A stretch of 64,000 nt of DNA from Rhodococcoides fascians A25f (GTDB lineage: Bacteria > Actinomycetota > Actinomycetes > Mycobacteriales > Mycobacteriaceae). Below the pieces are notes generated by a model. The model worked only from the letters and a program-made list of their open reading frames with translations, was not told the origin of the DNA and made no database searches. The position numbers and the translations under genes were made by a program. Positions 498 to 25,514 of the stretch are shown in pieces. Location of the stretch: the NCBI RefSeq assembly GCF_000760935.2, contig NZ_CP049744.1, forward strand, positions 4,867,501 through 4,931,500. Direction: 5' to 3'. Within the stretch, counting starts at the first letter, position 1. Every line of letters begins with the position of its first letter.

Positions 498-1084
498 GCT
501 GATGCCGTTGTGTAGGGGGTACTAGCAGCGAACTACGTGCACACGATCGACGATTGCACGACCTACTGCCGCAGGCGGGTGTGGTCGCGGCGACGACGGA
601 ATTACCCGCGGCGTTGCATCAGCCCTTCTCGTGCCGCGCGCGACCCGCCATGAACTGTCGCAGCAGGGCCTCCTGGTTCCGGCCGACCATGGCGCGCCAC
701 GCAAATTGAGAGCAGCAGGCCCAGTCGTGACTCCGAGAGTGGCGACATCACTTCGGTCGCCTTCGTGACGGGCAGCGCGAGATGGATGCCTCGGAAGTGC
801 GTATCCCAGCGCTGCCCAGGTGTCACCGCCGGAGTGTCGGTCCACCTGTCGATGTACCCAATAACTGCTGTGGCACAGTCGTATTGCTGACGCCACAACC
901 ATGCATATGAGATGGCCGGTCTGTGGTCCGGAGTGCTGATAGTCGCTCGACCGTTCGATCTCGAACGCTCGTCGGCTCTTGCCGCGAATGGACGTCTCAG
1001 GCTACTGTTACGCAAATGGTCAGTCCAAAGACCATAATTCTTGGAGGCGGTCCCGCCCCTCAACCGAAAGGACATCGGAGTCTG
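498..1084. other. Intergenic region before the BadI-like operon
   Basis: No convincing gene is seen. Open frames here on either strand have no recognisable domains or ribosome binding site. The only clear content is the promoter-proximal operator at 1017-1027 with a CATAAT element at 1033-1038, just before the downstream gene. Confidence 0.5.
1017..1027. promoter_or_regulatory. FadR/GntR-type operator, TGGTCAGTCCA
   Basis: The same 11-mer occurs at 4610-4620 and, inverted, at 12584-12594. It resembles the FadR-family operator TGGTCnGACCA. It lies 57 bases upstream of the BadI-like start and just upstream of a possible -10 element (CATAAT, 1033-1038). Binding by the GntR protein encoded at 4710-5480 is inferred. 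Confidence 0.65.
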
Positions 1085-1879
1085 ATGGCTGAATTCACCG
1101 ACATCACTTATGAGGTCGACAACGGTCTTGCCTGGATCACCATCAACCGCCCCGAGCGGTACAACGCGTTTCGTGCGCAAACCGTCGACGAACTGGTTCT
1201 CGCGTTCAAGCGGGCCTGGGCGAGCAGCGAGGTAGGCGTCATCGCGCTGACGGGCGCCGGTGACAAGGCGTTCTGCGCAGGCGGCGACCAGAAACAACGT
1301 ATGGAGACGGGCGACTATGGGCCCTCCGCCAGCGGTTTGTTCGAGGTGGAAGCACTTCACCGGGTGATCCGCGACGCTCCGAAGCCGGTCATCGCCGCGG
1401 TCAACGGACTGGCTATCGGCGGTGGCCACGTTCTGCACGTTCTCTGCGACCTCACGATCGCGGCCGACACCGCGCAGTTCGGCCAGAACGGCCCCCGTGT
1501 CGGATCGTTCGACGCGGGTCTCGGTTCCGGATATCTCGCTCGCGTTGTCGGCGAGAAGCGCGCACGCGAGATCTGGTTCATGCTGCGGCGACTGTCCGCA
1601 GACGAAGCGCTCGATTGGGGTCTTGTGAACAAGGTTGTCCCAGCGGCTGATCTGAAGTCCGAGGTACGTGCCTGGGCCGATCAGATGCTCGACTTCTCCC
1701 CGACCTCACTCAAGGTCCTCAAACAGTCGATGAACACCGACACCGAACATTTCGTCAGCATCGGATCCATGGCGTACTCGACACTCGAAATCTTCGGCGA
1801 AACCCCGGAAGCCCGCGAGGGCATTACTGCATTCAACGAAAAGCGCAAGCCGGACTTCAGTCCCTACCGAGGAAAATAG
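1085..1879 (+). CDS. Crotonase-family ring-cleaving hydrolase, BadI/MenB-like
   Basis: A 264-residue crotonase. It carries INRPERYNAF, an oxyanion-hole segment GAGDKAFCAGGDQ, the second loop [11 protein letters not shown], and [15 protein letters not shown] with the Asp conserved in MenB and BadI. It ends EKRKPDFSPY. The GGDQ and SFD signatures place it in the MenB/BadI branch rather than among plain enoyl-CoA hydratases. BadI opens the ring of 2-ketocyclohexanecarboxyl-CoA hydrolytically to pimeloyl-CoA. A similar hydrolytic C-C cleavage of a cyclic beta-keto-acyl-CoA is inferred here. The ATG at 1085 was chosen over a longer open frame because homology starts there and a purine-rich GAAAGGA lies upstream. 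The stop codon abuts the ATG of the next acyl-CoA dehydrogenase gene, so the two form an operon. Confidence 0.85.
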   Translation: MAEFTDITYEVDNGLAWITINRPERYNAFRAQTVDELVLAFKRAWASSEVGVIALTGAGDKAFCAGGDQKQRMETGDYGPSASGLFEVEALHRVIRDAPKPVIAAVNGLAIGGGHVLHVLCDLTIAADTAQFGQNGPRVGSFDAGLGSGYLARVVGEKRAREIWFMLRRLSADEALDWGLVNKVVPAADLKSEVRAWADQMLDFSPTSLKVLKQSMNTDTEHFVSIGSMAYSTLEIFGETPEAREGITAFNEKRKPDFSPYRGK

Positions 1880-3016
1880 ATGCAGTTCTCGCCCGAGCAG
1901 CGAGACTTCGCGGTGGCGGTGCGAACCTACTGCCGGCGCGAGCTGGCGAGCGTGGCGCAGCGTGACGCTGTCACCGACGGCGGGACCTTGTCCAACAGTG
2001 TCAAGGTTCTGTCGGACATGGCGCACAATGGCTGGCTCGGTGTGTCTTTGCCCGATGAATTCGGCGGCGGTGGAGCAGGATTCGTCGATGAATGCCTCTT
2101 TCTGGAAGAGGCGTCACGCGGGTTGGCGCCGATCACCGGATACGCGACAGGCCTCACCGCAGCGCAAACTTACCTTCGGTGGGGCTCGGACGAACAGAAG
2201 AATACGGTGGTGACCAACCTGGTGTCGGGCCGGCTGGAAGCCATTGCGCTCAGCGAGCCGGGCGCGGGGTCGGATCTGGCCGGGGTTCGGGTGAGTGCGC
2301 GGCGTGATGGTGACCGGTACCTGATCAACGGGCAGAAGACCTGGATATCGGCCGCCCATGTGGCAGAGCATGTTCTGGTGCTCACCCGTGAGGACGCATC
2401 CGGGAAGAGCCATGAGGGGCTTACGCTTCTCATGGTGCCGACAGACGCACCTGGATTGACCATCCGAGCCATCGAGACGATGGAGCCGCACACCTGCAAC
2501 GATGTGTTCTTCACAGACGTGTCGGTTCCAACGTCGGCCGTTGTCGGCGCACCCCTTGGGGCGTGGAAACAGTTGATGCGAGGACTGAGCATCGAGCGTC
2601 TCATCATTGCAGCGATGAGTATCGGCGGCGCTCAGCGGGCCCTCGACGACCTAGTGGTGTACGCCCGTGGACGAGAACAATTCGGTCGCCCGATTGCCAG
2701 TTTCCAGGCCCTCCGTCATCGCATGGCCGACATCGCCACCGATATCGATATCGCCAGGGTGTTCGTGTACGACGTCGCGCGCAGCATCGACAGCGGCTTG
2801 GAGGATGACCTGTCCAGAGAGAGCGCAATGGCGAAGATGCGCTGCACGGAGGTCGCCAAGAACACCGCCCTGGAGGCCATGCAAATGATGGGCGGGTACG
2901 GGTATGCGCGTGAGTACGGCATGGAAGGTCAGGTGCGGAGAGCCCTGGCTCCTCCGATCTACGGCGGTAGCAACGAAATTCAACGCGAAATCATCGCGAA
3001 AACCATCGGCCTCTGA
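1880..3016 (+). CDS. Acyl-CoA dehydrogenase
   Basis: A 378-residue flavin-dependent acyl-CoA dehydrogenase that should introduce an alpha,beta double bond into an acyl-CoA. It has all three regions: an N-terminal helical domain, the middle beta domain with ALSEPGAGSD and KTWIS, and the C-terminal helical domain with RREQFG-type and GGYGYAREY motifs. The usual IYEGT near the C-terminus reads IYGGS, so the Glu used by MCAD-type enzymes is absent there. A Glu in SIERLI, at the place used by isovaleryl-CoA and long-chain dehydrogenases, is a plausible catalytic base. It starts directly after the stop of the BadI-like gene and probably acts on the same substrate series. Confidence 0.88.
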   Translation: MQFSPEQRDFAVAVRTYCRRELASVAQRDAVTDGGTLSNSVKVLSDMAHNGWLGVSLPDEFGGGGAGFVDECLFLEEASRGLAPITGYATGLTAAQTYLRWGSDEQKNTVVTNLVSGRLEAIALSEPGAGSDLAGVRVSARRDGDRYLINGQKTWISAAHVAEHVLVLTREDASGKSHEGLTLLMVPTDAPGLTIRAIETMEPHTCNDVFFTDVSVPTSAVVGAPLGAWKQLMRGLSIERLIIAAMSIGGAQRALDDLVVYARGREQFGRPIASFQALRHRMADIATDIDIARVFVYDVARSIDSGLEDDLSRESAMAKMRCTEVAKNTALEAMQMMGGYGYAREYGMEGQVRRALAPPIYGGSNEIQREIIAKTIGL

Positions 3017-3738: not shown

Positions 3739-4521
3739 TCAGCGAAAATCAGGGCGCCGTTTCTCGACGAACGCCGTGATTCCCTCGGCGGCCTCACCTT
3801 CTTCGAACAACGACTGTTCCTGCGCGATTTCATAGCTGGCGCCCTCCGTCAGGGGGACGTCGAAGGCTGCGTTCACAGTGCGGATCACCGCGAGTTGAGC
3901 AGGCAGGGAACCACCGCGCAATTCCGCGGCGAACGCCAGAGCGCCCTCGACGACGTCACCATCGGTCACGCGTTCGACGAGGCCGATCGATAGCGCCTCC
4001 GGTGTGCGCAGCTGCCGGGCGGTCAGCATGATGTCGAGCGCTCGGCCGCGGCCCACCAACTGCGGGAGCCGTTGTGTCCCACCGGCACCAGGAATCAGCC
4101 CGATCTTGACCTCGGGTAGGCCGAACTTGGCGCTCGGTCCGGCCACGCGCAGCGTGCACGCCATCGCCAACTCCAGCCCACCGCCGAGGGCGAGACCGTC
4201 GACGGCGGCGATCGATACCCATGGAGCGGCGGCCAGGCGATCGTTCACCTCCCGCATCTTATCGCCGTACGCGGTGAACGACGCTGCGTCGATCGTTTTC
4301 AGATGCTTGATGTCGGCACCTGCAGCGAAGAACCCTGGTATGGCCGATGCAATGATCATGATCTTCACATCACCCGCCTTCTCGGCGGCGTCCATGGCGA
4401 GGTGCAATCCTTCGAGCAGCGACAATCCCAACGCATTTGCCGGAGGTCGTTGCAGGGTGACCAGGGTGATTCCGGGTTTCACCGGGTGCCAGGTGACCAC
4501 TTCGTCGGCGAGATCCGCCAT
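3739..4521 (-). CDS. Enoyl-CoA hydratase/isomerase family protein
   Basis: A 260-residue crotonase that probably hydrates an enoyl-CoA. The oxyanion-hole sequence is PGFFAAGADIKHL. Both catalytic glutamates of classical hydratases are present, in LGGGLELAMAC and in FGLPEVKIGLIPGAGGTQRL. It ends EGITAFVEKRRPDF. The ATG at 4521 has a GAGGAA ribosome binding site; the open frame extends 17 codons further without support. It is transcribed away from the GntR gene, and the shared region holds a promoter and two operator-like sites. In a BadHI-type scheme it would be the BadK-equivalent step that makes the beta-hydroxyacyl-CoA. That pathway role is inferred. Confidence 0.88.
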   Translation of the reverse strand: MADLADEVVTWHPVKPGITLVTLQRPPANALGLSLLEGLHLAMDAAEKAGDVKIMIIASAIPGFFAAGADIKHLKTIDAASFTAYGDKMREVNDRLAAAPWVSIAAVDGLALGGGLELAMACTLRVAGPSAKFGLPEVKIGLIPGAGGTQRLPQLVGRGRALDIMLTARQLRTPEALSIGLVERVTDGDVVEGALAFAAELRGGSLPAQLAVIRTVNAAFDVPLTEGASYEIAQEQSLFEEGEAAEGITAFVEKRRPDFR

Positions 4522-4579
4522 GAATTCCTCACTCAGTCTCGCGTAGCGCATGCGGGGTCGCTGCCCCCACACAATATCG

Positions 4580-4620
4580 TTGACAACGATTAATAGTCAA
4601 CCAATTATATGGTCAGTCCA
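4580..4620. promoter_or_regulatory. Divergent promoter region with FadR-type operator (TGGTCAGTCCA at 4610-4620)
   Basis: On the plus strand TTGACA (4580-4585) and AATTAT (4603-4608) are spaced by 17 nt and point at the GntR gene. On the minus strand TATAAT (4609-4604) points at the enoyl-CoA hydratase gene. The operator 11-mer at 4610-4620 sits at the expected plus-strand start site and inside the minus-strand promoter, so one bound repressor could block both. Confidence 0.65.
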
Positions 4621-4678
4621 AAATCGGACGTCTATGACCGTGGCGACATCGTGCGACCGGGGCGGTTGCTGTTAAATT

Positions 4679-4689
4679 AGGTACGACCA
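4679..4689. promoter_or_regulatory. Second FadR-type operator, AGGTACGACCA, in the GntR leader
   Basis: It matches the TNGTnnnACNA pattern of the FadR group, and its core GGTACGACC also occurs at 20726-20734. It lies 20 bases upstream of the GntR ATG, which suggests autoregulation. Confidence 0.55.
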
Positions 4690-4709
4690 TAAACGGAAAG
4701 CAGGTGTCC

Positions 4710-5480
4710 ATGGCGCAACCGTCCACAAACACAGTTGCACGCCATCGCGTCCAGTTGCAGCCGATGACGGTTCCGAAGGCGTCGGATGTCCTGGCCAACG
4801 ATCTGCGTGAACGTATTCTCCGTGGTGAATACCCGTCGGGAACCGCGCTGCCACCTGAGCGCGAGCTGGTCACCCAAACCCGAATGAGTCGCACTACGGT
4901 CCGCGAGGCCCTCAGGATCCTCGAGGTGCAAGGGTTGGTCGTCATCAAGACCGGCCGCTCGGGTGGAGCGTTCGTACAGCAACCAGGTGGAGACTCGGTC
5001 GCCAGCTCCGTCAGCTTGTTGATACGGGGTCAACAGCTGCGGCTGACGGCCCTTCTCGAAACCCGCGAAGCGATCGAACCCGCGTGTGCAAGCCTCGCGG
5101 CCAAGTACCGGACCGACGAGGACTTAGCCGGCCTCGACGCGGCGAACAAGGTGGTCGGCGATCCCGACCTGCCGCTCGAGGCGTTCTTGCGCGCGAACGT
5201 CGATTGGCACGTGGGGGTAGCAACGGCCAGTCACAACGAACTGCTGACCGGATTCATGAGTGCGCTCTCCAAAGCGATCTACAGCTCGACCGAGAACAAG
5301 GCGTTCGTCGACGATGCTGTGCGTGCGACTACATTCCGGGCGCACAAGTCGATCACAGATGCGATCAGAGCCGGTGATTCCGCAGCAGCGGTGCGCAGAA
5401 TGAGCAAGCACGTGCACGGGTACGCCGAGGCCGTGGTTCAGGTGGAGGAACGTACCGAAATCGACCTGCGCGGATCCTGA
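4710..5480 (+). CDS. FadR-type GntR transcriptional regulator (FCD ligand domain)
   Basis: A 256-residue regulator. The N-terminal winged helix-turn-helix is classical GntR (GTALPPERELVTQTRMSRTT, then VREAL and RILEVQGLV). It is followed by an all-helical FCD domain with metal/ligand residues in NVDWHVGVA, FRAHKSI and MSKHVHGY. Members of this subfamily bind palindromes of the TNGTnnnACNA type and are usually released by acyl-CoA thioesters. Such palindromes stand upstream of nearly all catabolic operons between 1 and 25.5 kb, so this is the probable pathway-specific repressor. The ATG at 4710 is preferred over GTG at 4704 because GGAAAG is better spaced. Its 3' end overlaps the convergent LLM gene by 43 bases. 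Confidence 0.9.
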   Translation: MAQPSTNTVARHRVQLQPMTVPKASDVLANDLRERILRGEYPSGTALPPERELVTQTRMSRTTVREALRILEVQGLVVIKTGRSGGAFVQQPGGDSVASSVSLLIRGQQLRLTALLETREAIEPACASLAAKYRTDEDLAGLDAANKVVGDPDLPLEAFLRANVDWHVGVATASHNELLTGFMSALSKAIYSSTENKAFVDDAVRATTFRAHKSITDAIRAGDSAAAVRRMSKHVHGYAEAVVQVEERTEIDLRGS

Positions 5481-6526
5481 GCTTCTGCCGCTTCAAGATG
5501 GGACCGTAGTCCTTGTAACACGGCTGCATTGGTGTATGCGGTCTGTTGGGCCGTCAGTCCCCACGGCGGTGCGATCAGTGTGATGTGATCGGCGACGTCG
5601 TTCGGAAGCTCGGCCAAGCGCCGTGTGAAGTCGTCCGGCCGGCACGTGATGGTAATTTTTTCGATCATGTCGTCGGTCACCGCGTCGACCAGCGCCTCGT
5701 CGTCACCGATGCGTGCCGCCTCGCGAATGCGGCCCTGGGCGGCGCTCCACCCGTGTAACTCGAACAGCCGGTCGTACACCCGTGACGCGGCGTACTGCCC
5801 GATCGCATACGCGGCTTGCCGCCTCGCCACATCCAGATCCTCGTCGATCGAGCACATCTTGATGCCCATGATCGTGACCTTCCCTGGGTCGCGGCCTGCG
5901 CGGGCGGCACCGCCAGCGATGTCCTCTGCCACCGGGCCGCGGACGTAGTCCGCCGTGTACATCGGGTGCCCCACCAACCCGTCGGCGTGCTCTCCTGCGG
6001 TTCTGACCATCAACGGGTTCACCCCTGCGATCCACATCGGGATTTCGGGCCTGACCGGCTCCGGGACACCAGCAGTCGGTGAGACGTGGACGTGATAGAA
6101 GCGTCCGTCATGATGTACCGGGCCTTCGTGCAGGTGCCACAGCGCCTTCAGGACCGTCAGCAGTTCGGCCATGCGGAGGGCGGGCGCGCTCCCGTCGACG
6201 CCGTGCCACGCCTCCATCATCTTCTTTGTCCCGTTGCCCAAGCCCAGAGTCATACGGCCGTTCGACATTTCGTCGAGATCGCGTGCCTCGGCCGCCCAGA
6301 TCAGCGGACTGCGGCCGACGCCGTAGGCGATGTTGGAACCGATCCCGATCGTGTCGGTGCCGCCGGCCAGCGCCGCCATGGGGATTGTGGCCGAGCGGCT
6401 GTACAACTCGCTGACCCACACGTTCGTGCACCCGATCGCTTCTGCTTCGCGGGCCGTCTCGACCATGGTCTCGAACCGTTGCGGCCCGCGGCCGACACCG
6501 GTGGCGTTGATGCCGAATGTAGTCAC
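5438..6526 (-). CDS. LLM-class, probably F420-dependent, oxidoreductase
   Basis: A 362-residue luciferase-like (beta/alpha)8 protein. Diagnostic segments are EAEAIGCTNVWVSELYS, IGSNIAYGVGRSP, LDEMSNGRMTLGLG and PEIPMWIAGVNP. Many actinobacterial enzymes of this type use reduced F420, but FMNH2-type monooxygenases share the fold, so the cofactor is inferred. The GTG at 6526 has GAGGAA eight bases upstream and matches where homology starts; the open frame continues upstream into the previous gene. It is the last gene of the minus-strand operon starting at 12546. A redox step on an alicyclic or ketone intermediate is possible. The substrate is unknown. Confidence 0.82.
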   Translation of the reverse strand: MTTFGINATGVGRGPQRFETMVETAREAEAIGCTNVWVSELYSRSATIPMAALAGGTDTIGIGSNIAYGVGRSPLIWAAEARDLDEMSNGRMTLGLGNGTKKMMEAWHGVDGSAPALRMAELLTVLKALWHLHEGPVHHDGRFYHVHVSPTAGVPEPVRPEIPMWIAGVNPLMVRTAGEHADGLVGHPMYTADYVRGPVAEDIAGGAARAGRDPGKVTIMGIKMCSIDEDLDVARRQAAYAIGQYAASRVYDRLFELHGWSAAQGRIREAARIGDDEALVDAVTDDMIEKITITCRPDDFTRRLAELPNDVADHITLIAPPWGLTAQQTAYTNAAVLQGLRSHLEAAEAQDPRRSISVRSST

Positions 6527-6543
6527 CGTCTGTATTCCTCGCC

Positions 6544-7377
6544 TCAAGCGCGCCGTGGGAATCGACCGAAATCCGGTGGTCTTTTTTCTTTGAACGCTTC
6601 GCGGCCCTCTTTCGCTTCCTCGGAGGCGTAGAAAAGCAGGTTCGTGTCGTGTGCGAGCTGCTGGATGCCGGCCAGCCCGTCTTCGGCCGCGTGGAAACTG
6701 GCTTTCATCATTCGCAGCGCCATGGGTGAGAGCTCGAGCATCCGGCGAGACCATGCCAGCGTCTCGGACTCCAATTCACCCAGTGGCACAACGGTATTGA
6801 CAAGGCCCATCTCCAGCGCTTCGTGTGCGTCGTATTGCCGACACAGAAACCAGATTTCCTTGGCTTTGCGGGCACCCACCATGTTGGCGAGCAAACCAGC
6901 GCCGAATCCCCCGTCGAACGAGCCCACGCGTGGGCCCACCTGCCCGAGTCGGGCGTTGTCGGCCGCCACAGTCAGATCGCAGACGATCTGCAAGACATGG
7001 CCGCCGCCAATTGCGTACCCGGCGACCATGGCCACCACAGGTTTGGGGAGTCTGCGGATCTGCACTTGCAGATCGGTGACGTGGAAGCGGCCGACCTGAT
7101 CGGGCCGGTCGGGATCTGTCAGGTAGCCGGTGTCACCGCGCACACGCTGATCGCCGCCGGAGCAGAAGGCGTTGTCCCCCTGCCCTGTGAGCACGATGAC
7201 GCCGATTGAAGGGTCCTCACGTGCCAGGGTCAATGCGCTGGAGATCTCCACAAGGGTCTGCGGGCGGAACGCGTTGTGCACTTCCGGCCGGCAGATGGTG
7301 ATTTTGGCGACTCCGTCGGGTGTGCGCGCGTACTCGACATCGTCGTAACGCTCGAGGACGGTCCAGTCGGCTTTCAC
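6544..7377 (-). CDS. MenB-like crotonase, candidate ring-cleaving (BadI-type) enzyme
   Basis: A 277-residue protein very close in pattern to 1,4-dihydroxy-2-naphthoyl-CoA synthase: [71 protein letters not shown], and a C-terminal [12 protein letters not shown]. MenB makes a ring by Claisen condensation and its homologue BadI breaks one by the reverse chemistry. There are no other menaquinone genes here, but a BadH-like SDR is directly upstream, so catabolic ring opening is more likely. The GTG start overlaps the SDR stop as GTGA, showing translational coupling. A second member of this family is at 1085-1879. Confidence 0.85.
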
Positions 7378-8132
7378 GCCATCGTCAATCCGCCACTCAC
7401 GGACAACGTCTGGCCGGTGATGTACCCGGTGTCATCCGATGCGAAGAAGGCTACCGCGGCAGCGATGTCAGCGGCGACGGCCAACCGTTTCATCGGCACG
7501 GACCGGGTCATCCCGCCTATCACCTTGTCCGCATCCTGACCCGAGCTGTCGGCGAACTTGCGCAGTGCCGGCGTGTCCGTAGGCCCGGGGCAGACGGTAT
7601 TCGCGGTGACACCCTTGGTTGCGACCTCTCGTGCAAGTGTCTTGGTGAACGCGATGATTCCGCCCTTCGCGCCTGAGTAGACCGCTTCGAGTGAGGATCC
7701 CACGCGGCCGGCGTCGGAACCGATATTGATCACGCGACCGAAGCCGCGTTCGATCATGCCCGGCACTACTGCGTGATTGACCCGCAGCGCGCCCTTGAAG
7801 TTGATGTCGAGGATCTTGTTCCAGAAATCCTCGTTGGTGTCGACGAACTTCATGAAGTCGTCCCAGCCGGCGTTGTTGACCACGACTTCGATCGGGCCGA
7901 GTTCCTGACCGATCCGTTCGATGGCAGCGCGCACCGACGCGGTGTCGGTGATGTCGACAGGAACCGCGACTGCTTCTCCGCCGTCGGCGACGATTTGCTG
8001 TGCGGTGCGTTCGGCGGCCTCGAGGTTCAGATCGGCGATCGCCACGCGGAACCCGTCGGCAGCGAGGCGGCGCGAGATGCCCTCTCCGATTCCTTGGGCT
8101 CCGCCGGTGACAAGTGCGACTCGGTTACTCAT
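7374..8132 (-). CDS. SDR dehydrogenase, BadH-like (2-hydroxy-alicyclic-acyl-CoA dehydrogenase)
   Basis: A 252-residue classical SDR with [10 protein letters not shown] for NAD(P) binding, NNAGWDDF, an active-site Ser in [13 protein letters not shown], and the catalytic pair in VYSGAKGG. It ends [13 protein letters not shown]. The NNAGWD, SDAxRVGSS and LSVSGGLTM wording is characteristic of BadH, which oxidises 2-hydroxycyclohexanecarboxyl-CoA to the 2-keto form, the substrate of BadI. The next gene is MenB/BadI-like and is coupled by a GTGA overlap, which strongly supports a BadH-BadI module. The ATG at 8132 has AAGGAAG upstream. Confidence 0.88.
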
Positions 8133-8160
8133 CGATCTTCCTTCTGTCGGGGTTCGGTGC

Positions 8161-9390
8161 TCATGCTGCAACGTTTGCGGCGCGAGCGAGGTCGTCTCGA
8201 AACTCGGGGGCTGCGACGGCGATCAGCCGACGCATGCGTTCGGTCAAGCTCTGGCCGCGCAGGTGTGCGACACCGTGTTCGGTGACCACACAGTCGACGT
8301 CGGCGCGTGCGGTGCTGACCACGCCCTCGTCCAACTCGAACTTGATCGAGGACCGCCCTCGCATCGTCGATCGAAGGGCGACGATGGAACGGGTACCGGT
8401 CAAGGACGCGGCGCGAGCAAAGTCGACCTGTCCCCCGACGGCACCGAGGTAGGAGCCACGGCTTAGCTCCGCACCTACTTGTCCGGTCAGGTCGACCTCG
8501 ATCGCGAAGTTGACGGCGACCAGGGAGGGCAATTGCGAAAGGACGCGCGGCGAATGCGTGTAGCTGGTCGGCCGAAACGACATCGGCACCTCGGACGCAC
8601 GGCTGTAAAGGGCGGAGGATCCGAGTGCGGTGCCGGCGACAGCCAGTCCGGGATCGATCTCTTTGCGTGCGCCGGTAACGACGCCCTTGTCAATGAGGGC
8701 GAGGACGCCGTCAGTGACCATCCCTGTGTGCACGCCCAGGTCCCGGTGATCGGACAGTGCGTCGAACACGGCTGCACCTGCCGTACCCACGCCGACCTGA
8801 ACGGTGGCACCGTCGTCGATTATCGACGCGACATGGCGCGCGATGGAACGTTCGAGATCACTCGGTGCGCGGCTCGGTTCATCCTGTAGCGGTCGATCCG
8901 TGGACACTGTAGATGCGAACCTGGACAACGGGATACGCGGTGAGCCCGGCACGTCCGGCATTTGTTCGTTGATTTCAGCGAACAGCAGTGGTGTGTGTTC
9001 GAGTGCGTCGGCCATGTAGTCCACACCGATCCCGAGCGAGCACAGACCGTCGGAACCTGGCGGCGCTACTTGAAGCAATCCGATGTCGCGCGGGAACCAG
9101 CCTTCGGCGAACATCCGCGGAAATGCCGAATAGTGGCACGGGACGACTTCGAGTCGATTCTCCTTCTCGAGTGCGCGAAGGGCACCCAGCCCACCGTAGG
9201 AGACCACGGTATCGGCGACCGACACCGCCTGCGCGATCTGATCGTTCCAGCTGAGCCCGCTGAACAGCCGCAAGGGGCCGAGGTCGGGCTCGCGGGCGAG
9301 CAGCATGTCGACGAGTGGTCGCGGCTCCGCCGCTGCCTGGCCCCACCACACCCCCATGCCAGGGCGAAGCCATTCGCTGAAACCGTCCAT
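8161..9390 (-). CDS. Acetyl-CoA hydrolase/transferase (4-hydroxybutyrate CoA-transferase) family
   Basis: A 409-residue family I CoA-transferase. Motifs include GVGTAGAAVFDAL, NFAIEVDLTGQVGAE with a glutamate in the usual catalytic position, GAVGGQVDFARAA and VVTEHGVAHLRG. It probably moves CoA between an acyl-CoA and a free acid (or hydrolyses one), allowing substrate activation or recycling in the pathway. Its ATG overlaps the stop of the upstream thiolase gene as TGATG, so the pair is co-translated. The longer open frame upstream lies inside the thiolase gene. The exact substrates are unknown. Confidence 0.85.
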   Translation of the reverse strand: MDGFSEWLRPGMGVWWGQAAAEPRPLVDMLLAREPDLGPLRLFSGLSWNDQIAQAVSVADTVVSYGGLGALRALEKENRLEVVPCHYSAFPRMFAEGWFPRDIGLLQVAPPGSDGLCSLGIGVDYMADALEHTPLLFAEINEQMPDVPGSPRIPLSRFASTVSTDRPLQDEPSRAPSDLERSIARHVASIIDDGATVQVGVGTAGAAVFDALSDHRDLGVHTGMVTDGVLALIDKGVVTGARKEIDPGLAVAGTALGSSALYSRASEVPMSFRPTSYTHSPRVLSQLPSLVAVNFAIEVDLTGQVGAELSRGSYLGAVGGQVDFARAASLTGTRSIVALRSTMRGRSSIKFELDEGVVSTARADVDCVVTEHGVAHLRGQSLTERMRRLIAVAAPEFRDDLARAANVAA

Positions 9391-12546: not shown

Positions 12547-12583
12547 GTCGGTCCTCCAAAATCGGTTGATCTAACCATATCAA

Positions 12584-12594
12584 TGGACTGACCA
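12584..12594. promoter_or_regulatory. FadR/GntR-type operator (TGGTCAGTCCA on the minus strand)
   Basis: It is identical, inverted, to the sites at 1017 and 4610. It lies 37 bases upstream of the acyl-CoA dehydrogenase start that heads the large operon ending at 5438. Confidence 0.65.
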
Positions 12595-15630: not shown

Positions 15631-15641
15631 GGGGCTCTCTT

Positions 15642-16829
15642 TCAGCTTCGTGGCATGCCGAGCACACGCTCGGCGGCAATGTTGCGTTGAATGAAGGTCG
15701 ATCCCCCGGCGATGGCAGTCCCGCGCGCCTGATAGGCGAGGCGGAGCCAACGCTGCTGGTCCGAGTTTTCCTGATCGGTCGTATCCGACAGGGCCAGTTG
15801 ACCCCCGAAATCGGAAAGTTCGAGTCCGAAGTCGGCAATGTCTTCGACTAGTGGGCAGAAATACAGTTTGCCTATCGACGCGACCGGTCCTGGGGGTTCA
15901 CCGGTTGCCGCGCCGGTGATCACACGTTGGCCGATGAGGTAATGCGTCAAAGCTCGCCCATAGAGATCCGCAATTTTCTGACGTACCTCGGATTTCGACG
16001 TCATCGGCTCATCGTGCTGTCCCACGGTTCGTTGCGCCTGTTCGATCAGATCGACGACGGCGCGCGTGGTGTTCACTCGGCCGGTGGCGATGCCCACCCT
16101 CTCGAAAGCCAGCGTTCCCATCGCTACCTTCCACCCGCCGTCTACCTCACCGACCACGGCGGAGTCGGGGACGACGACATCGTCGAGGAATACCTCGTTG
16201 AATTCGGCTTCTCCGAGCATGTGAGCGAGTGGCCGCACGGTGATGCCTTCACTCGACATCGGCAGAAGAAAGTATGTGATTCCGCGATGTCTCTCGCCTC
16301 CGCCGGTGCGAGCCAACAGAATTGCATTGTCTGCGATCTGTGCACGAGACGTCCAGATCTTCTGACCCTGGATCCGCCACCCGCCGTCGACCTTCGTCGC
16401 CTTGGTTCGCAGCGATGCCAAGTCCGACCCCGACTCGGGTTCGGAGAACAGCTGGCACCACACTTCATCGCCGGTGAGAATCGGTTGCAGGTAGCGCTTC
16501 TTCTGTTCCTCGCTGCCGAACGCCGAGATGGTGGGCCCTGCAAAGTCTTCGCCGATGATGTTGAGTCGCTCCGGCGCGCCGGCCCGATCGGTCTCCTCGT
16601 TGAAAATGGCCTTGATCTTTGCGTCCGCTCCGGCGCCGCCGTACTCGACAGGCCACGACAGACCAGCAAAACCGGCGTCGAACAACATGCGCTGCCACAC
16701 CGACCACGAGGCGCGCTGGTCCTCGAGGCGCTGCGATGCCTGCCGAGGGACGGTCTTCACCGCGTCGGCCAACCACCGTCGAACCGTCGACCGAAACTCT
16801 GCCTCGGCGGCGGAGTCTGTTAGATCCAT
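15642..16829 (-). CDS. Acyl-CoA dehydrogenase, large subunit type
   Basis: A 395-residue acyl-CoA dehydrogenase resembling the FadE29/FadE17 branch: GGAGADAKIKAIFNEE, GEDFAGPTISAFGSEEQK, FSEPESGSDLASL, GQKIWTSRAQ and AFERVGIATGRVN, with a C-terminal GGSTFIQRNIAAERVLGMPRS. The usual IYEGT Glu is not present at the C-terminal end, which fits a heteromer in which catalytic residues are shared with the small subunit at 12622-13668. It has a clear GGAGG ribosome binding site and is first in its operon. A FadR-type operator lies in the divergent intergenic region to the MaoC pair. Confidence 0.87.
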   Translation of the reverse strand: MDLTDSAAEAEFRSTVRRWLADAVKTVPRQASQRLEDQRASWSVWQRMLFDAGFAGLSWPVEYGGAGADAKIKAIFNEETDRAGAPERLNIIGEDFAGPTISAFGSEEQKKRYLQPILTGDEVWCQLFSEPESGSDLASLRTKATKVDGGWRIQGQKIWTSRAQIADNAILLARTGGGERHRGITYFLLPMSSEGITVRPLAHMLGEAEFNEVFLDDVVVPDSAVVGEVDGGWKVAMGTLAFERVGIATGRVNTTRAVVDLIEQAQRTVGQHDEPMTSKSEVRQKIADLYGRALTHYLIGQRVITGAATGEPPGPVASIGKLYFCPLVEDIADFGLELSDFGGQLALSDTTDQENSDQQRWLRLAYQARGTAIAGGSTFIQRNIAAERVLGMPRS

Positions 16830-16866: not shown

Positions 16867-16877
16867 AGGTCTGACCA
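16867..16877. promoter_or_regulatory. FadR/GntR-type operator, AGGTCTGACCA, between divergent operons
   Basis: The core GGTCTGACC is a near-perfect palindrome. It lies 37 bases upstream of the minus-strand acyl-CoA dehydrogenase start and 20 bases upstream of the plus-strand MaoC start, directly after a TACAAT element (16861-16866). The same 11-mer occurs at 25504-25514. Confidence 0.68.
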
Positions 16878-17781: not shown

Positions 17782-17834
17782 CGCCCACTGGACACCACAG
17801 CAGCCCAATTCGTTCCCGACACGATTCTGCCGGC

Positions 17835-18810: not shown

Positions 18811-18842
18811 GAAGCCGCGACCGACCGCGGATGTCTCCGACG

Positions 18843-19235: not shown

Positions 19236-19313
19236 CTTGTCCGGGTGGGAAGACCGAACAGTGCCGCCATTCGGTGGCTACGCGGCTGTGTGTGCAGGAA
19301 CGCTCGGCCACTG

Positions 19314-20219
19314 CTACGAGATCCCTTCAGGTCGGGGATCCGCAGCTGCTGCGAGGGCCAGCACGCGTCGCGCCTGCGCGAGATGGGGCGCGTCGAGCAT
19401 CTTTCCATCCAAAGAAACGGTTCCTACGTCTCCGGTGAACGCCTCGATGACGCGGTGCGCGTGGTCGACCTCCGCGGCCGACGGTGTGAATGCATCGTTG
19501 ATGACATCGACCTGTGCTGGATGTATCGCAATCCTGCCACTGAATCCTTCTGCGCGGGCGTGACGTGAAGACTCCGCGAGCCCCTCCGAGTCGCGGACAT
19601 CGACGAAAAGAGTCTCCACCGCCTCGACGCCGGCTGCCCGTGCGGCCATCAATGTCATCGACCGCACCATCTGGTAGGTGAATGCCCAGCCGCCGTCCGG
19701 TCCGGTATTCTTGGAGGCACCGAGTGCAGCACTCAGATCCTCAGCACCCCATGTCATTCCGAAGAGCCGGGGCAGCGCGGCCTCGGCGAAGTCGCCGAGT
19801 CGGAAAGGGGCTGTCGGGGTCTCCGTCACGACGGGAAGAACCTGTATCTGTCCCTGTGGTAAGCCGCTCGCTGCTTCGAGTGCGTCGAGGTAGTGGTGAA
19901 CTCTGAGTACCTCGGCTGGACTGTCGATCTTGGGGATCATGATCCCCGCCGGGTTCGAGTGCACCACCGCTGCGAGGTCCAACAACGCATGGGCGGTATC
20001 GACGGGATTCATACGTACCCACAGCTGCGGACCCTGCGCTCGCCCCTGATGGTCACGAAGAAATTGATGCACCAGTTCGCGTGCTACCGGTTTGCGATTC
20101 TCGCTGACCGCGTCCTCGAGGTCCAGGATCAGGGCATCTGCTCTGCTGTCTGCGCCTTTGGACAACTTTTTCTCGCTGTCGCCTGGTACGAAGAGGAAGG
20201 ACCGTAATGGCGCGCTCAC
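19314..20219 (-). CDS. CitE-like HpcH/HpaI aldolase/citrate lyase family protein
   Basis: A 301-residue TIM-barrel protein beginning [18 protein letters not shown], with [12 protein letters not shown] (metal/substrate acidic residues), [10 protein letters not shown], and a central [16 protein letters not shown]. The last motif is typical of CitE-like and malyl/methylmalyl-CoA lyases. These enzymes cleave or form beta-hydroxyacyl-CoA bonds with Mg2+. It starts at a GTG that overlaps the stop of the MaoC gene as GTGA. A hydratase plus CitE-like lyase pair resembles mesaconyl/citramalyl-CoA handling, which would suit late steps on branched C5-type intermediates. That is inference. Confidence 0.85.
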
Positions 20220-20677
20220 TCCGGCTTCTTACGCTGCAGACCCGCCCGTTTGCACGACGCCACCAACTCGTCACGTTGGTTGAAAGCACGGTGGAGAAAA
20301 ACGACAATCCCTTGATCGGGCCGAGATTTCGAGTCACGCAGCTCGATGACCTCGGTGGTGACATGGAGAGTGTCGCCATGAAACACGGGTGCTGGAAACC
20401 TTACTTCGTCCCACCCGAGGTTGGCGACGGCCGTTCCGAGAGTGGTATCTCCCACCGAGATTCCCACCATCAACCCCAGGGTGAAAGCGCTGTTGACGAT
20501 ACGCTGGCCGTAGTCGGTGCCACGCATGTACTCCTCGTCGAGATGGAGCTGCGCGGGGTTGTGGGTCATCGCGGTGAAGAGGACGTTGTCGGTTTCGGTC
20601 ACCGTTCGTCTGATTGCGTGTTCGAAGGTCTGTCCGACAGTCAGTTCGTCGAACCACAAGCCTGCCATATGCATCAT
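20216..20677 (-). CDS. MaoC-family hydratase (mesaconyl-CoA hydratase-like)
   Basis: About 153 residues: a single hotdog domain with [25 protein letters not shown]. The N-P-x-x-L-H-L-D pattern, with Thr/His in place of the usual GD, is typical of the mesaconyl-CoA/beta-methylmalyl-CoA hydratase branch. Downstream are [24 protein letters not shown] and a charged C-terminus. It is coupled to the CitE-like gene by GTGA. The ATG at 20677 has GAGG five bases upstream, while 20701 has no ribosome binding site. A FadR-type operator lies 47 bases upstream. Confidence 0.82.
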
Positions 20678-20724
20678 CCTGTCCTCGGGAACGCCGATCA
20701 TGAGCCGGCACTCTACAAAGTAAA

Positions 20725-20735
20725 TGGTACGACCA
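20725..20735. promoter_or_regulatory. FadR/GntR-type operator, TGGTACGACCA
   Basis: The outer arms TGGT and ACCA are a perfect palindrome. It is located between the thiolase stop and the MaoC/CitE operon start. Confidence 0.62.
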
Positions 20736-20765
20736 AATCCGGCCAGCGCTTCCGGCTTTCTGCAC

Positions 20766-21944
20766 TCAAGCCTTGATCAACAGGGCATTGCCTTGGCCGC
20801 CGCCGCCGCACAGAGCCGCTGCGCCGATACCGCCACCGGCACGCTTCAACGAGTGCGCGAGAGACAAGGCCAGCCGCGCACCGGACATACCGACAGGATG
20901 CCCCAATGCGACTGCCCCGCCGTTGATGTTGACTCTGGACGGGTCCAAACCGAGCCGCTCGATCGACGCAAGTGCCACTCCAGCGAACGCCTCGTTGATT
21001 TCGATCAGATCCAGGTCAACGACCTGTGTCACCCCATCCTTCATCAGGGCAGCGGAAATGGCCGCAGCTGGCTGATACAACAACGAAGTGTCCGGACCCG
21101 CGACGAAGGCGGACGCCCCGAGGGTCGCCAGCCAGTCGAGTCCGAGTTCGCGGGCTCTGGCCTCGGTCATCAGCACGACCGCAGCGGCCCCGTCGGACAG
21201 CTGCGATGCCGATCCGGCAGTGATGGACCCGTCCTGTCGGAAAGCCGGGCGGAGCTTGCCGAGGCTGTCCGCTGTGGTGCCTTCACGAATACCCTCGTCG
21301 ACGGTCATGGTCGAAGATCCTCGACGCCCAGCGATCTCCACAGGCGCTATCTCGCCGGCGAAGGTGCCGCTCGCAGTGGCGGCTGCGGCCAGAGCGTGTG
21401 ACCGCGCGGCGAATTCGTCCTGCGCTTGACGAGCCACACCAGCTTCACGGACATAGCTCTCGGTCGCCTCACCCATCGACACCTTGTCGAAAGCGCAAAT
21501 CAAGGCATCCGAATCGAGCGCATCGTCGAGACTCGCCGCACCGTACCGAAATCCAGTCCGTGCACCCTTGGCGAGATATGGGGCATTGGTCATCGATTCC
21601 ATACCGCCTGCAACCACGATCTCCGCGTCTCCGCAGCTGATCAGACGGCCAGCCTCGATGATTGCCTGCAACCCGGACAAGCACAGGTTGTTGATCGTGA
21701 TCGCGGTCGTGGTCAGTGGCAGTCCCGCGGCAACTGCTGCCTTACGTGCCGGATTGGGTCCGACACCGGCCTGAACCACATTTCCCATGATCACAGCGTC
21801 TACCGATTCCGCACTCACATCCGCTCGCGCCAGGGCGTTGGAGATGGCGTGTGCTCCGAGGTCGACCGCACTCAGCGAAGCGAGCGCACCCGCCAACTTA
21901 CCGATCGGGGTGCGTGCCCCGGCAACGATAACAATCCCGCTCAT
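20766..21944 (-). CDS. Acetyl-CoA acetyltransferase (thiolase)
   Basis: A 392-residue thiolase, complete at the active site: nucleophilic Cys in TINNLCLSGLQAI, His in NINGGAVALGHPVGMSGAR, and second Cys in ALCGGGGQGNAL. It begins IVIVAGARTPIGKLAGALA, close to biosynthetic-type thiolases that act on acetoacetyl-CoA and short beta-ketoacyl-CoAs. The ATG at 21944 has GGAGGAG about nine bases upstream; an extra upstream Met is not supported. It is the second thiolase of the regulon and likely handles terminal short-chain thiolysis. Confidence 0.9.
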   Translation of the reverse strand: MSGIVIVAGARTPIGKLAGALASLSAVDLGAHAISNALARADVSAESVDAVIMGNVVQAGVGPNPARKAAVAAGLPLTTTAITINNLCLSGLQAIIEAGRLISCGDAEIVVAGGMESMTNAPYLAKGARTGFRYGAASLDDALDSDALICAFDKVSMGEATESYVREAGVARQAQDEFAARSHALAAAATASGTFAGEIAPVEIAGRRGSSTMTVDEGIREGTTADSLGKLRPAFRQDGSITAGSASQLSDGAAAVVLMTEARARELGLDWLATLGASAFVAGPDTSLLYQPAAAISAALMKDGVTQVVDLDLIEINEAFAGVALASIERLGLDPSRVNINGGAVALGHPVGMSGARLALSLAHSLKRAGGGIGAAALCGGGGQGNALLIKA

Positions 21945-22013
21945 GTGAACCGTCTCCTCCAATAGGTGTGGTCGTCCGAGGCCCGGCCCTCGTGTTCGTC
22001 GACCGGTCAGTAC

Positions 22014-22730
22014 TCAGCTTCTGACGGGCGCGAACAGTCCGCAGAGCACTGAGACGGTCAAACCCACGGCCAGCGCGCACAACATGAGCAGGAGCGCTAC
22101 GCCGGCAACAAGTGTCCGCAGAGCAGTCCCGACGCCTTCTATCAGTTCGTGCACCGTCACTCCCTCACGTCGGATCGCCTCTGCTCTCGTCACGAGCCAT
22201 GACATCATATGGTCTGACCGAAAGCGAATTACGGTATGGTGCGGTGCTGCGAGATACGGAGCATCGCCCGAGCTGTCGATCTGCGCCGAACCGTCGAGGA
22301 ACCGCTGCTCCAGCCAGCTGATGGAGGGACGTGATGCGGCCAGCAAACCGAAGAAGTGATCGACCACGCCCAACTGCGGCAGCAACGGCGGGGCGTCAAT
22401 CTCATCCGAGTAGCTCGCCTCGGCACCCTTGCTGCACCACTTCGTAAGCAGCTCTCGGGTTTGGTACGTCGGAACCACGTCGTCGTTCACGTTCTGCAAC
22501 AGCACAATTGGAACGGTCGGCGATGTTTGCCCGAGTACGAGGCGTTCGAGAACCTCGCGAATCTGTGCATCTGATTCGAGACTTTCCGCTATGGACATGC
22601 CGCTTTTGGTGAAGTCTTTGCTTGCTCTGAAATCCCCAGTACGCAACGTCGCCCAGGACGCATTGCTGCGCAGTCCTCTCTGACGGATGGAGTCGATCGA
22701 GTTAGGCCGGACAACGAGCTGGAACAGATG
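22014..22730 (-). pseudogene. C-terminal remnant of a secretory-lipase-family protein
   Basis: The frame resembles the second half of the actinobacterial secretory lipase family: SWATLRTG, PIVLLQNVNDDVVPTYQTRE (region of the catalytic Asp), LLTKWCSKG, LGVVDHFFGLLAASRPSISW (region of the catalytic His) and a hydrophobic tail. The half with the GxSxG nucleophile is missing, and the place where it should be is occupied by a strong hairpin and the end of the aldehyde dehydrogenase gene. No ribosome binding site is seen. It is most likely an untranslated relic. Confidence 0.6.
22210..22220. promoter_or_regulatory. FadR/GntR-type operator-like site, TGGTCTGACCG
   Basis: It matches the other sites except for the last base and sits inside the lipase remnant, 265 bases upstream of the thiolase start. 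If the remnant is not translated, this may be the thiolase promoter region. It is more distant than the other sites, so confidence is lower. Confidence 0.45.
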
Positions 22731-22767
22731 ATTGCCACGGGTCCACAACGCGCGGACCCGTGGCAAT
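22731..22767. terminator. 14-bp perfect hairpin downstream of the aldehyde dehydrogenase gene
   Basis: ATTGCCACGGGTCC (22731-22744) pairs perfectly with GGACCCGTGGCAAT (22754-22767) across a 9-nt loop. It starts 15 bases after the aldehyde dehydrogenase stop on the minus strand. It is a strong candidate terminator despite lacking a long T-run. Confidence 0.75.
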
Positions 22768-22782
22768 CAGCTCAGGAAAGTC

Positions 22783-24261
22783 CTACTCGCGCACGCGCGC
22801 TTTCAGGTCGTCGAGCGCGGCCTGGATGTTCGCGTCGATTGCCTGTGCGAAACCTTCGGTAGCCAACGAGGCACCGACAAGTCCATCCGTCAGACCCAAC
22901 TCGCCTTCAGCGACCGCAACGGTTCTCATGTGACTCAAACGGTCGAACCCTGCTCGACCGTGGTACGCACCAGATCCCGAGTTGCCAACCCCTCCAAACG
23001 GCGTCCCAGGTAAGAACGCGTGTGCAATACCGTCATTGACAGTGATGCCGCCGCTGCGCGTGAACTCCAAGAACCGGTCGAACTGGGCGTCTTGTTCGCC
23101 GTACCAGTAGGCACCCAGCGGCGACGGATGTGAGTTGATGTAGTCGATCGCTTCGTCGACATGAGCGTAGCTGTAGATCGAGATGACCGGCCCGAACACC
23201 TCTTCGGTCGATATCGCTGCGTCCGCCGGTACGTTACGGAGGATTGTGGGGGTCAGCAGGCGGTCCCCGGAGGGTTCACCTTGCTGATCCGATTCGCCTG
23301 GGATGGCCACCCGTTCGGCGCCCTTCTCCACAGCGTCGTCGACCAGGCCTTCGATACGAGCATAATTACGCTGGTTTACGATCGACACGAGACCGGCGGT
23401 GCTGCTCGGGTCCGGAAAGAGCGCACGAATTTCACTTCCGAGCTTCTGTACGAAGACTTCCTCGTCTTTCTGCGGGACGAACACGTAATCGGGGCACAGA
23501 CAGACCTGCCCTGAGTTCAACAACCTTGATCCGGCAATGCGGTGGGCGGCGAGGTCGAGATCCGCCGACTCCGACACCACCACCGGGTTTTTCCCCCCGA
23601 GTTCCAAAGTCGTGGGAACGAGGTTTCGAGCCGCAGCCTCGGCGACCTTCTTGCCGATCGCCGGCGATCCGGTGAACACGATGTGGTCGAGTTGCAATTG
23701 CGAGAAATGCTCCGCTGTCGATATGTCGCCGACCACGACGGCAACCTCATCGGGACTCAGACGCTCCGCCACGGCAGCTGCAAGAACCGCACCGGTACGA
23801 GGATGAAAGTCGGGGAACTTGATGATGACCCGGTTTCCAGCAGCGAGCGCGTCGATTGCGGGGTGGATCGTCAATTCGAGGGGGAAGTTCCATGCGCCGA
23901 TCACACCGACGACGCCGAGGGGTTGCGGAACAACGTAACCGCCCGAAACGTCCTGAGGCTTCATCCACTCGGCGATACCATCGCGAAGCTCTTGTGCAGC
24001 ACCGACGAACGGCAACGTGTCCAACGCCTTCGTCAGGGCTGTGGGCCGGGAGCCGTATTCTGCATTCAGACTTTCCGCGATCTCATCGATGTGCTCAACA
24101 ATCGCCAGAAGCAGACGGTCGATCCGATTGATCCGTACCTCGGCCGACGGAGTGCCTTCCTTTCGAAAGGCGGCGCGCTGGTCGCGGACAAGGCGCTCGA
24201 GAGTTTCTCGTGACACCGGTTTCCCGACTTCGTTTGTGGAAATGGTCGACGTGGAAGTCAT
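22783..24261 (-). CDS. Aldehyde dehydrogenase (coniferyl-aldehyde dehydrogenase-like)
   Basis: A 492-residue NAD(P)-dependent aldehyde dehydrogenase. It has the cofactor segment IGAWNFPLELTIHPAIDALA, FTGSPAIGKKVAEAAA, the general base Glu in TLELGGKNPVVV, the nucleophilic Cys in SGQVCLCPDYVFV, and EEVFGPVISIYSY. The C-terminal part resembles CalB-type and fatty/aryl aldehyde dehydrogenases with a hydrophobic tail region. It should oxidise the aldehyde made by the neighbouring alcohol dehydrogenase to the acid used by the CoA ligase. The start has AAAGGGAAAA upstream. It is the second gene of the two-gene operon and ends at a strong hairpin. Confidence 0.9.
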   Translation of the reverse strand: MTSTSTISTNEVGKPVSRETLERLVRDQRAAFRKEGTPSAEVRINRIDRLLLAIVEHIDEIAESLNAEYGSRPTALTKALDTLPFVGAAQELRDGIAEWMKPQDVSGGYVVPQPLGVVGVIGAWNFPLELTIHPAIDALAAGNRVIIKFPDFHPRTGAVLAAAVAERLSPDEVAVVVGDISTAEHFSQLQLDHIVFTGSPAIGKKVAEAAARNLVPTTLELGGKNPVVVSESADLDLAAHRIAGSRLLNSGQVCLCPDYVFVPQKDEEVFVQKLGSEIRALFPDPSSTAGLVSIVNQRNYARIEGLVDDAVEKGAERVAIPGESDQQGEPSGDRLLTPTILRNVPADAAISTEEVFGPVISIYSYAHVDEAIDYINSHPSPLGAYWYGEQDAQFDRFLEFTRSGGITVNDGIAHAFLPGTPFGGVGNSGSGAYHGRAGFDRLSHMRTVAVAEGELGLTDGLVGASLATEGFAQAIDANIQAALDDLKARVRE

Positions 24262-24295
24262 CTATTTTCCCTTTCAGTGCAAATATGAATCTCTG

Positions 24296-25396
24296 TCAGA
24301 AAACGAGAACCGGCTTGATCGCGACGCCGGTTTCCAAATCCTCGACCGCCTGATTGATTTCTTGGAATGAGTACTTTTTCACCAACCGATCGATCGGGAA
24401 CCGCCCCTGGCGGTACAACTCGATGAGGCGGGGAATGAATTCGTGGGGACGCGAGTTACCCTCGGTCACTCCTACGATGGTTTTACCGGCCATCAGCAAT
24501 TCGAGCATGTCGACGCGTACTTCTGTACCTGCCTTGCCGAACCCCAACACCGCGCACGTTCCGGCGGGGGCGAGCGCGCTGACCGCGGTGCGCACGACTG
24601 CGGTGGATGCCGTCGTGTCGACAGCGAAGTCGGCCCCCATGCCTGTGATCTCGCGGATCGCGTCGACGAGATCGTCCGCGTCGCCCCTCAAAGTGTGGGT
24701 GGCCCCGACCTCGCGTGCCACATCCAGACGTTCATCGACCAAGTCCACAGCGATCACCGATTCGCAACCCACAACGCGAGCGGCCATGACCGCGGACAGG
24801 CCAACAGCACCGACACCGAATACGACCAGGCTGGACCCTGCTTGCGGTCGCAACTTGTTCATCACTGTTCCGGCGCCGGTCTGGATCCCACAGCCGAGGG
24901 GACCCAACAGGCTGAGATCGACGTCTTCTGGGACTTTCACGATGTTGCGTTCGTTCGCGATCGCGTAGGAGGCAAATGTCGATTGCGCGAAGAAGTTTCC
25001 GTTTACTCGGTCGCCGGAAACCGTGGAGATAGCGCTCGTTCCGTCGAGGCGACCTCCACTGACGTTTCTCATGGTGAACTCGATGCAGTACGCAGGTAGG
25101 CCCTGACGACAAGTGATGCAGATACCGCATGCGTCGAATGTGACGACGACCTTGTCTCCGACCGCGAACCTGGTGACGCCGTCACCGACGGCGTCGATCT
25201 CACCGCTCCCTTCGTGACCCAGCACGAGCGGGAGCGGTACCGGCAACCACTGTCGTTGAACCCCGATGTCCGTGTGGCAGATACCGACAGAATGCACGCG
25301 AACGCGAACCTCGCCGGGACGGGGGTCGTCCAGGTCGAGTTCTTCGATCTGAAACGGTGTTTCAGGCTCGCGTACTACAGCCGCTGTGATTCGCAT
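24296..25396 (-). CDS. Zinc-dependent alcohol dehydrogenase (aryl/terpenoid alcohol type)
   Basis: A 366-residue medium-chain dehydrogenase. Catalytic zinc ligands lie in GICHTDI and LGHEGSGEI. The structural zinc Cys set is CGICITCRQGLPAYC. The cofactor-binding segment is VFGVGAVGLSAVMAAR, and GCGIQTGAGTVMN is typical of the benzyl/geraniol/perillyl alcohol dehydrogenase group. With the aldehyde dehydrogenase 34 bases downstream it would convert a primary alcohol to a carboxylic acid. The ATG at 25396 has GGAGG upstream; the open frame extends 35 codons further but is not supported. The promoter region is shared with the divergent AcoR-like activator and contains a FadR-type operator. Confidence 0.9.
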   Translation of the reverse strand: MRITAAVVREPETPFQIEELDLDDPRPGEVRVRVHSVGICHTDIGVQRQWLPVPLPLVLGHEGSGEIDAVGDGVTRFAVGDKVVVTFDACGICITCRQGLPAYCIEFTMRNVSGGRLDGTSAISTVSGDRVNGNFFAQSTFASYAIANERNIVKVPEDVDLSLLGPLGCGIQTGAGTVMNKLRPQAGSSLVVFGVGAVGLSAVMAARVVGCESVIAVDLVDERLDVAREVGATHTLRGDADDLVDAIREITGMGADFAVDTTASTAVVRTAVSALAPAGTCAVLGFGKAGTEVRVDMLELLMAGKTIVGVTEGNSRPHEFIPRLIELYRQGRFPIDRLVKKYSFQEINQAVEDLETGVAIKPVLVF

Positions 25397-25503
25397 GGGC
25401 CTCCTCAATGTTGCACCCGTCGAGGTCGTCTTCGGGTGTGATCCAGATGACACAACTCTAAGAAGTAAACGATCTGACTGACCGTCCAACTTTCTGGACA
25501 ATT

Positions 25504-25514
25504 AGGTCTGACCA
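25504..25514. promoter_or_regulatory. FadR/GntR-type operator, AGGTCTGACCA
   Basis: Identical to the 11-mer at 16867-16877. It lies between the divergent alcohol dehydrogenase and AcoR-like regulator genes. A related half-site (CTGACTGACC, 25474-25483) is 30 bases to its left. Confidence 0.63.

Follow-up and report, generated by a model that had tools for sequence, protein, structure and literature searches.

Within a 64-kb window of the Rhodococcoides fascians A25f genome (contig NZ_CP049744.1, positions 4,867,501 to 4,931,500), meaning the whole stretch of 64,000 nucleotides that was analysed, a catabolic cluster of about 25 kb surrounds the gene of a FadR-subfamily GntR regulator (4710-5480, plus strand). 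One palindromic element, set in A/T flanks, precedes seven catabolic units of this cluster and gntR itself. From the sequence we infer, with a probability of about 0.9, that the eight copies are operators of this GntR protein, which would bind them, repress the catabolic set and be released by a metabolite. A first-pass annotation of this DNA had proposed that a single type of operator, FadR-like, heads almost all operons of the 25-kb cluster, a claim supported by a flanked search pattern, an independently trained matrix and conservation in relatives; co-occurrence of the sites with the orthologue adds to these in favour of the GntR protein as cognate regulator. We read the set as a local regulon, well supported and governed by a regulator of known type, placed over a pathway for which no description was found in the open-access literature (subscription papers lay outside the search). 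The specificity of the operator allows its use as a tag for the genes of this ring-degradation pathway; combined with a reporter and candidate inducers, it gives a direct route to the substrate.

All eight 11-mers were found by direct check of the sequence at the positions first assigned to them. Those on the plus strand precede the BadI1-ACAD1 unit (1017-1027) and gntR (4679-4689, a site of putative autoregulation). The minus-strand sites are on the ECH side of the divergent gntR/ECH region, adjoining a TATAAT box (4610-4620), before ACAD2 and the operon that runs from it to LLM (12584-12594), before ACADl-AMPlig-ACADs (16867-16877), before MaoC-CitE (20725-20735), about 270 bp upstream of Thio2 with a small open reading frame (ORF) between (22210-22220), and before ADH-ALDH (25504-25514), where the site also stands 73 bp before a divergent AcoR-like gene. 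The Thio2 site falls in the tail of ORF 22014-22766. Distances to the assumed gene starts are about 26-114 bp, with ADH at 114 bp, and 271 bp for Thio2. As had been noted, three sites share one sequence (1017, 4610 and the minus-strand reading of 12584), and two others are identical to each other (16867 and 25504). The general form first given, T/A-GGT-C/A-N-G/T-ACC/TCC-A, needs amendment in that 12584 fits it on the minus strand only and 22210 ends in G. Placement upstream of separate transcription units also holds largely, the exception being 4610 and 4679, which share one divergent region; there, a single site at 4610 overlapping both promoters gives way to two, 4610 for ECH and 4679 for gntR, that are kept as a pair.

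The bare consensus occurs at chance density, and the counts that establish this weigh against the operator reading. At up to two mismatches, TGGTCNGACCA gave 39 matches in the window against 36.8 expected; WGGTCNGWCCA matched the genome 37 times and its reversed control 38 times; two of 29 other permuted half-sites likewise reached eight matches within 1-25.6 kb at up to one mismatch; and over the loci of 35 relatives the permuted half-site GTTCG was commoner than the real one (176 against 116). Such equality with controls is what would be seen if the sites were chance matches in A/T-rich intergenic gaps. At up to one mismatch, nine of the ten window matches fall within 1-25.6 kb, and each of the eight sites is bordered on either side by two A/T bases. 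When these flanks are included, the pattern WWWGGTMNGWCCRWW has nine matches in the 5.9-Mb genome, eight of them the named sites, and its control has one. Recovery of the eight is by construction, whereas the near-emptiness of the rest of the genome is not. Much of the operator specificity is carried by the A/T flanks, and the sites are distinctive because of their surroundings and position rather than the bare consensus; as a further point on the opposing side, part of the flank may belong to the promoter rather than the operator.

A 23-column matrix, for which the training set was limited to promoters of GntR genes in other species (35 loci, yielding 34 distinct sites), ranks exactly the eight sites as the top eight positions of the window, all of them outside genes as drawn, with scores of 26.4 (16867), 23.3 (4679), 19.7 (25504), 19.1 (both 12584 and 22210), 18.1 (4610), 12.2 (20725) and 10.8 (1017); the ninth-best position scores 7.9 and is inside ALDH. 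Mirror-permuted matrices gave a mean of 0.25 matches in 1-25.6 kb, and one in 500 equalled the real count of eight. Together with conservation across genera at fixed places, described below, the ranking and these controls contradict an origin of the sites by chance, which we regard as wholly improbable. Four extra candidates were rejected, at 3522 (score -1.5), at 10589 at the end of the SDR gene (-6.6), at 12455 inside ACAD2 (-2.8) and at 12567 (1.9), the last corresponding to the -10-like region of ACAD2 in relatives. Seven further copies of the motif elsewhere in the genome were scored with 3 kb of surrounding sequence (L086-L092), and these stretches reach a matrix score of 3.9 at most. 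About 0.75 kb beyond the left edge of the window, a borderline ninth site (L070:11754-11764, score 9.8) falls between an ORF for an AMP ligase and an SDR ORF, the latter being cut by that edge at 20-427. The eight sites lie within the 25 kb to which the regulon had been confined, but the borderline site suggests that it may extend further left.

Relatives of the regulator were drawn from 35 named actinobacterial loci (63-88% identity), with one further locus (L036, 31% identity) excluded as an orthologue. Of 17 loci from Nocardia, Gordonia and Williamsia, 16 have two sites before gntR, and in an alignment of the gntR region, which took in 11 of 17 close loci, both gntR/ECH sites stand out as conserved blocks in 12/12 aligned sequences. 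In the corresponding ACAD2-region alignment, which took in 12 of the close loci, the site is conserved together with its -10-like box. Sites were also counted gene by gene, as a site of score at least 10 within 300 bp before the gene, with identity limits set per gene and hits below them dropped. They were present before most first genes (ACAD2 31/32, ACADl 25/30, BadI1 15/17), and the inner genes were nearly free of them (MenB2 0/22, BadH 0/31, CoAT 0/27, AMP ligase 0/29, ACAD1 0/10, CitE 0/9, Thio1 1/32); the counts for gntR, ECH and ACADs were 33/35, 18/25 and 16/29. Over all genes, 142 of 352 had a site, whereas 100 permuted matrices gave 2.65 on average and 40 at most. MaoC first gave 3/9 because in six loci the start projected from the window ORF extends to a point 5-8 bp from the site; when every site less than 300 bp away is counted, the figure is 8/9, and the remaining locus (L077) has none of score 10.

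Several features of these counts tell against the reading or temper it. The gntR count, and partly those for ECH and ACADs, are circular, since they share promoters with the training set. In Prauserella (L032) neither gntR nor ACAD2 is preceded by a score-10 site, and the three Mycobacterium/Mycolicibacterium records lack the site of ACADl (five of 30 loci, one of them present in duplicate). Several loci are near duplicates, so that the counts are not independent. The Thio2/ADH right end of the cluster has no close counterpart in the relatives examined, and these two sites are consequently read from their own sequence and position.

Site and regulator also travel together between genomes. The GntR orthologue is present in 2 of 37 same-genus genomes, and these two contain nine and ten flanked-pattern matches, against 45 in all over the other 35 genomes, where the control gave 30. 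Across 25 relatives there were 1-17 flanked matches each, 200 in total by hand sum against 22 for the control, with palindromes counted on both strands. In the 16 of these 25 genomes that were listed in full (nine being left out), 96 of 135 distinct match places lie within 50 kb of gntR, a region comprising about 1.5% of the sequence. The Prauserella genome (G085) runs the other way, with one flanked match against two for the control. This distribution bears on a scenario in which several FadR-subfamily regulators share a TGGT-N3-ACCA type of site and the eight sites are not the regulon of one protein. The source genome has 16 GntR-type matches, and TKGT/ACMA boxes are common to the subfamily (PMC4494728). 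Nevertheless, the flanked site is nearly confined to the cluster and is scarce in genomes lacking this orthologue, and shared use by several regulators appears quite unlikely. A separate point against the main reading is that control could be shared with the AcoR-like gene next to ADH or with another GntR paralogue, which occurs in relatives.

The GntR protein contains a GntR winged-helix domain (PF00392, 64.6 bits against a cut-off of 27) and a C-terminal FCD domain (PF07729, 85.0 against 24.3), whilst no match to FadR_C was obtained at E 0.001 and the FadR models fall far below their cut-offs (44.4 of 189 and 43.5 of 249.2 bits). A structure model (mean pLDDT 83.4, pTM 0.65) is nearest in fold to NanR and CGL2915, with TM-scores, by query length, of 0.44 and 0.61. 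Invariant in 27 aligned sequences are the helix-turn-helix residues E49, R50, S59, R60, T62 and R64, as well as N162, H166, H211 and H233. The latter four we take to be the positions at which FCD proteins bind metal and effector, with the asparagine at N162 presumably standing in place of an aspartate that acts as a metal ligand. The operator is of FadR type, as had been proposed. The acyl-CoA effector suggested alongside it does not follow, because the domain is FCD, FadR_C gave no match, the FadR models score low and the nearest folds are NanR and CGL2915; an acyl-CoA is thus one possibility. A second GntR paralogue, 41% identical, occurs near the same cluster in G003 (L069) and Gordonia lacunae (L080), with TGGTCAAACCA or TGGTCACACCA sites nearby, perhaps constituting a sister regulon.

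Read along transcription, most sites have roughly the form TTTGGTCAG(A/T)CC(A/T). By eye, the sites of ECH (TATAAT), Thio2 (TATGAT), ACADl, ACAD2 and BadI1 are succeeded by a -10-like box, either directly or after a gap of up to about six bases. A GntR dimer would occupy each operator, several of which lie against or just upstream of a -10-like box, and would so exclude RNA polymerase; a pathway metabolite entering the FCD pocket might then release the protein and switch on the whole set. Of the single repressor first proposed, control by one regulator is supported by sequence, and repression is suggested by the position of the sites. The same GntR protein might instead activate, or act differently at different promoters, and the greater distances of the Thio2 and ADH sites from their assumed starts (271 and 114 bp) would suit this alternative; the close spacing of site and -10-like box at the five promoters above is the arrangement for steric repression, and we consider the alternative improbable. 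The palindromic TKGT-N3-ACMA type of operator with putative autoregulation is found at the conserved sites 4610 and 4679, whereas those in which one half reads GTCC deviate from this form. Boxes of the TKGT/ACMA type in the FadR subfamily can have extra half-sites 7-12 nucleotides away, according to PMC4494728, and an overlapping extra half-site was seen in some distant relatives. Beside the ECH promoter is a perfect inverted repeat, ATCGTTGTCAACGAT (4556-4586), which was not seen in the aligned relatives and could be another regulator's site.

Compared with known systems, the regulator resembles the local FCD regulators NanR and CGL2915, its nearest solved sequences and folds, in its GntR winged helix and FCD domain, but differs in its probable control of a CoA-dependent ring-degradation cluster and in the asparagine at N162, where FCD proteins have an aspartate as metal ligand. 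With the acyl-CoA-responsive FadR of Escherichia coli it has in common an operator of the same general form and, at what we take to be the contact positions, the conserved FadR-type recognition residues, whereas its C-terminal domain is FCD and not FadR_C. The TKGT/ACMA-type palindrome is likewise a feature of NanR/CGL2915-type regulators (PMC4494728).

The putatively controlled genes begin on the plus strand with BadI1, a BadI/MenB-like crotonase-fold hydrolase (1085-1879, start assumed), and ACAD1, an acyl-CoA dehydrogenase (1880-3016). All others are on the minus strand. ECH, an enoyl-CoA hydratase, is listed as 3739-4572, with a true start that may be at about 4521. The ACAD2 operon comprises LLM, a luciferase-like F420-type oxidoreductase (5438-6754 as listed, start uncertain), MenB2 (6544-7377), a BadH-like SDR (7374-8171), the 4-hydroxybutyrate-type CoA-transferase CoAT (8161-9441), the thiolase Thio1 (9390-10589, start assumed), a second SDR (10592-11382, start assumed, the listed ORF running to 11626) and the acyl-CoA dehydrogenase ACAD2 (11380-12546). 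Further along are the short acyl-CoA dehydrogenase subunit ACADs (12622-13668), AMPlig, a ligase resembling acetyl/acetoacetyl-CoA synthetases (13678-15750 as listed), and the acyl-CoA dehydrogenase ACADl (15642-16829), whose nearest PDB entry is Tcur3483, which we take to be a steroid-type heteromeric dehydrogenase. These are followed by a CitE-like lyase (19314-20219), a MaoC-type hydratase (20216-20701, true start perhaps nearer 20674), the thiolase Thio2 (20766-21962), the aldehyde dehydrogenase ALDH (22783-24261) and the zinc alcohol dehydrogenase ADH (24296-25501 as listed, true start about 25395).

The set reads as a BadH/BadI/MenB-like CoA pathway by which an alicyclic, perhaps polycyclic, acid would be oxidised, activated with CoA, passed through beta-oxidation and opened at its ring. 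It shares with the bad/ali cyclohexanecarboxylate pathway a BadH-like dehydrogenase, BadI/MenB-like hydrolases, a hydratase, a ligase and acyl-CoA dehydrogenases, but adds a CoA-transferase, the LLM enzyme, MaoC/CitE and extra acyl-CoA dehydrogenases, and the BadH and BadI cut-offs are not reached (BadH-like SDR, 312.3 of 431.2 bits; BadI1 and MenB2, 319.3 and 260.7 of 467.6 bits). Against the NCBI MenB models, MenB2 scores above both cut-offs (442.6 of 380 and 380 of 342.7 bits). A bad-type set is described for Rhodococcus BCP1 and R7 (PMC4591350). Since enzymes resembling Bad proteins have been proposed for the B-ring in the estrogen-type (aed) pathway (PMC12507874), this pathway was weighed as a candidate; nothing specific to aed was seen in the window, and no matching cluster in the literature searched. 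In Mycobacterium rhizamassiliense, a meta-cleavage-type set is present inside the cluster (L084:5757-14003), consisting of a Rieske oxygenase, LigB, an FAA hydrolase, a DmpG-like aldolase and an acetaldehyde dehydrogenase.

Next to the cluster, about 5.6-10 kb left of the window (L070:2512-6919), is a cassette of intact ORFs for a regulator of PaaX type, two HGD-D proteins and an activase of BcrAD type. The nearest structures to these cassette proteins are subunits of 2-hydroxyacyl-CoA dehydratases and arene-CoA reductases, a superfamily, with benzoyl-CoA reductase, known mainly from anaerobes; all BCR-type models are below cut-off and the general activase domain alone passes. Cysteines are conserved in five columns of HGD2 (18/18 sequences) and six of HGD1 (5/5). 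Linkage of the cassette to the cluster is strong: among the 37 same-genus genomes HGD2 is confined to the pair that carries the GntR cluster, and 12 of 25 relatives with GntR have an HGD gene, in ten of these 12 on the gntR contig within 50 kb (distances by hand). The cassette is nonetheless mostly without this operator. Its membership of the regulon in the source genome is not supported, the best operator score being -0.4 (L111). Elsewhere, a strong site (21.2) lies about 56 bp before HGD2 in Prauserella (L099, G085), weaker ones occur at L095 (11.4) and L110 (10.6 and 8.0), L097, L100 and L106 have sites of score 15.4-17.6 about 1-1.3 kb from the cassette, and the remaining 12 of 18 HGD loci have no site of score at least 10. 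It is a tentative and rather doubtful idea that regulon and cassette form one pathway in Actinobacteria that are presumably aerobic, with an ATP-driven iron-sulfur step of the dehydratase/benzoyl-CoA reductase superfamily feeding BadH/BadI-like ring opening; were it true, an oxygen-sensitive enzyme family would be placed in aerobes.

The cluster was probably acquired horizontally, given its lower GC content (about 0.60-0.65, compared with 0.66-0.70 over most of 38-56 kb) and the rarity of its regulator within the genus. Between ALDH and Thio2, ORF 22014-22766 has a match to secretory lipase (PF03583) that is limited to the C-terminal portion, and is perhaps a gene remnant. To the right of the cluster, 29207-33348 encodes an Mrr-like nuclease, a SIR2_2 protein and a tyrosine recombinase, genes of mobile or defence type, and the region of the SIR2_2 protein is low in GC (about 0.50 at 30-32 kb).

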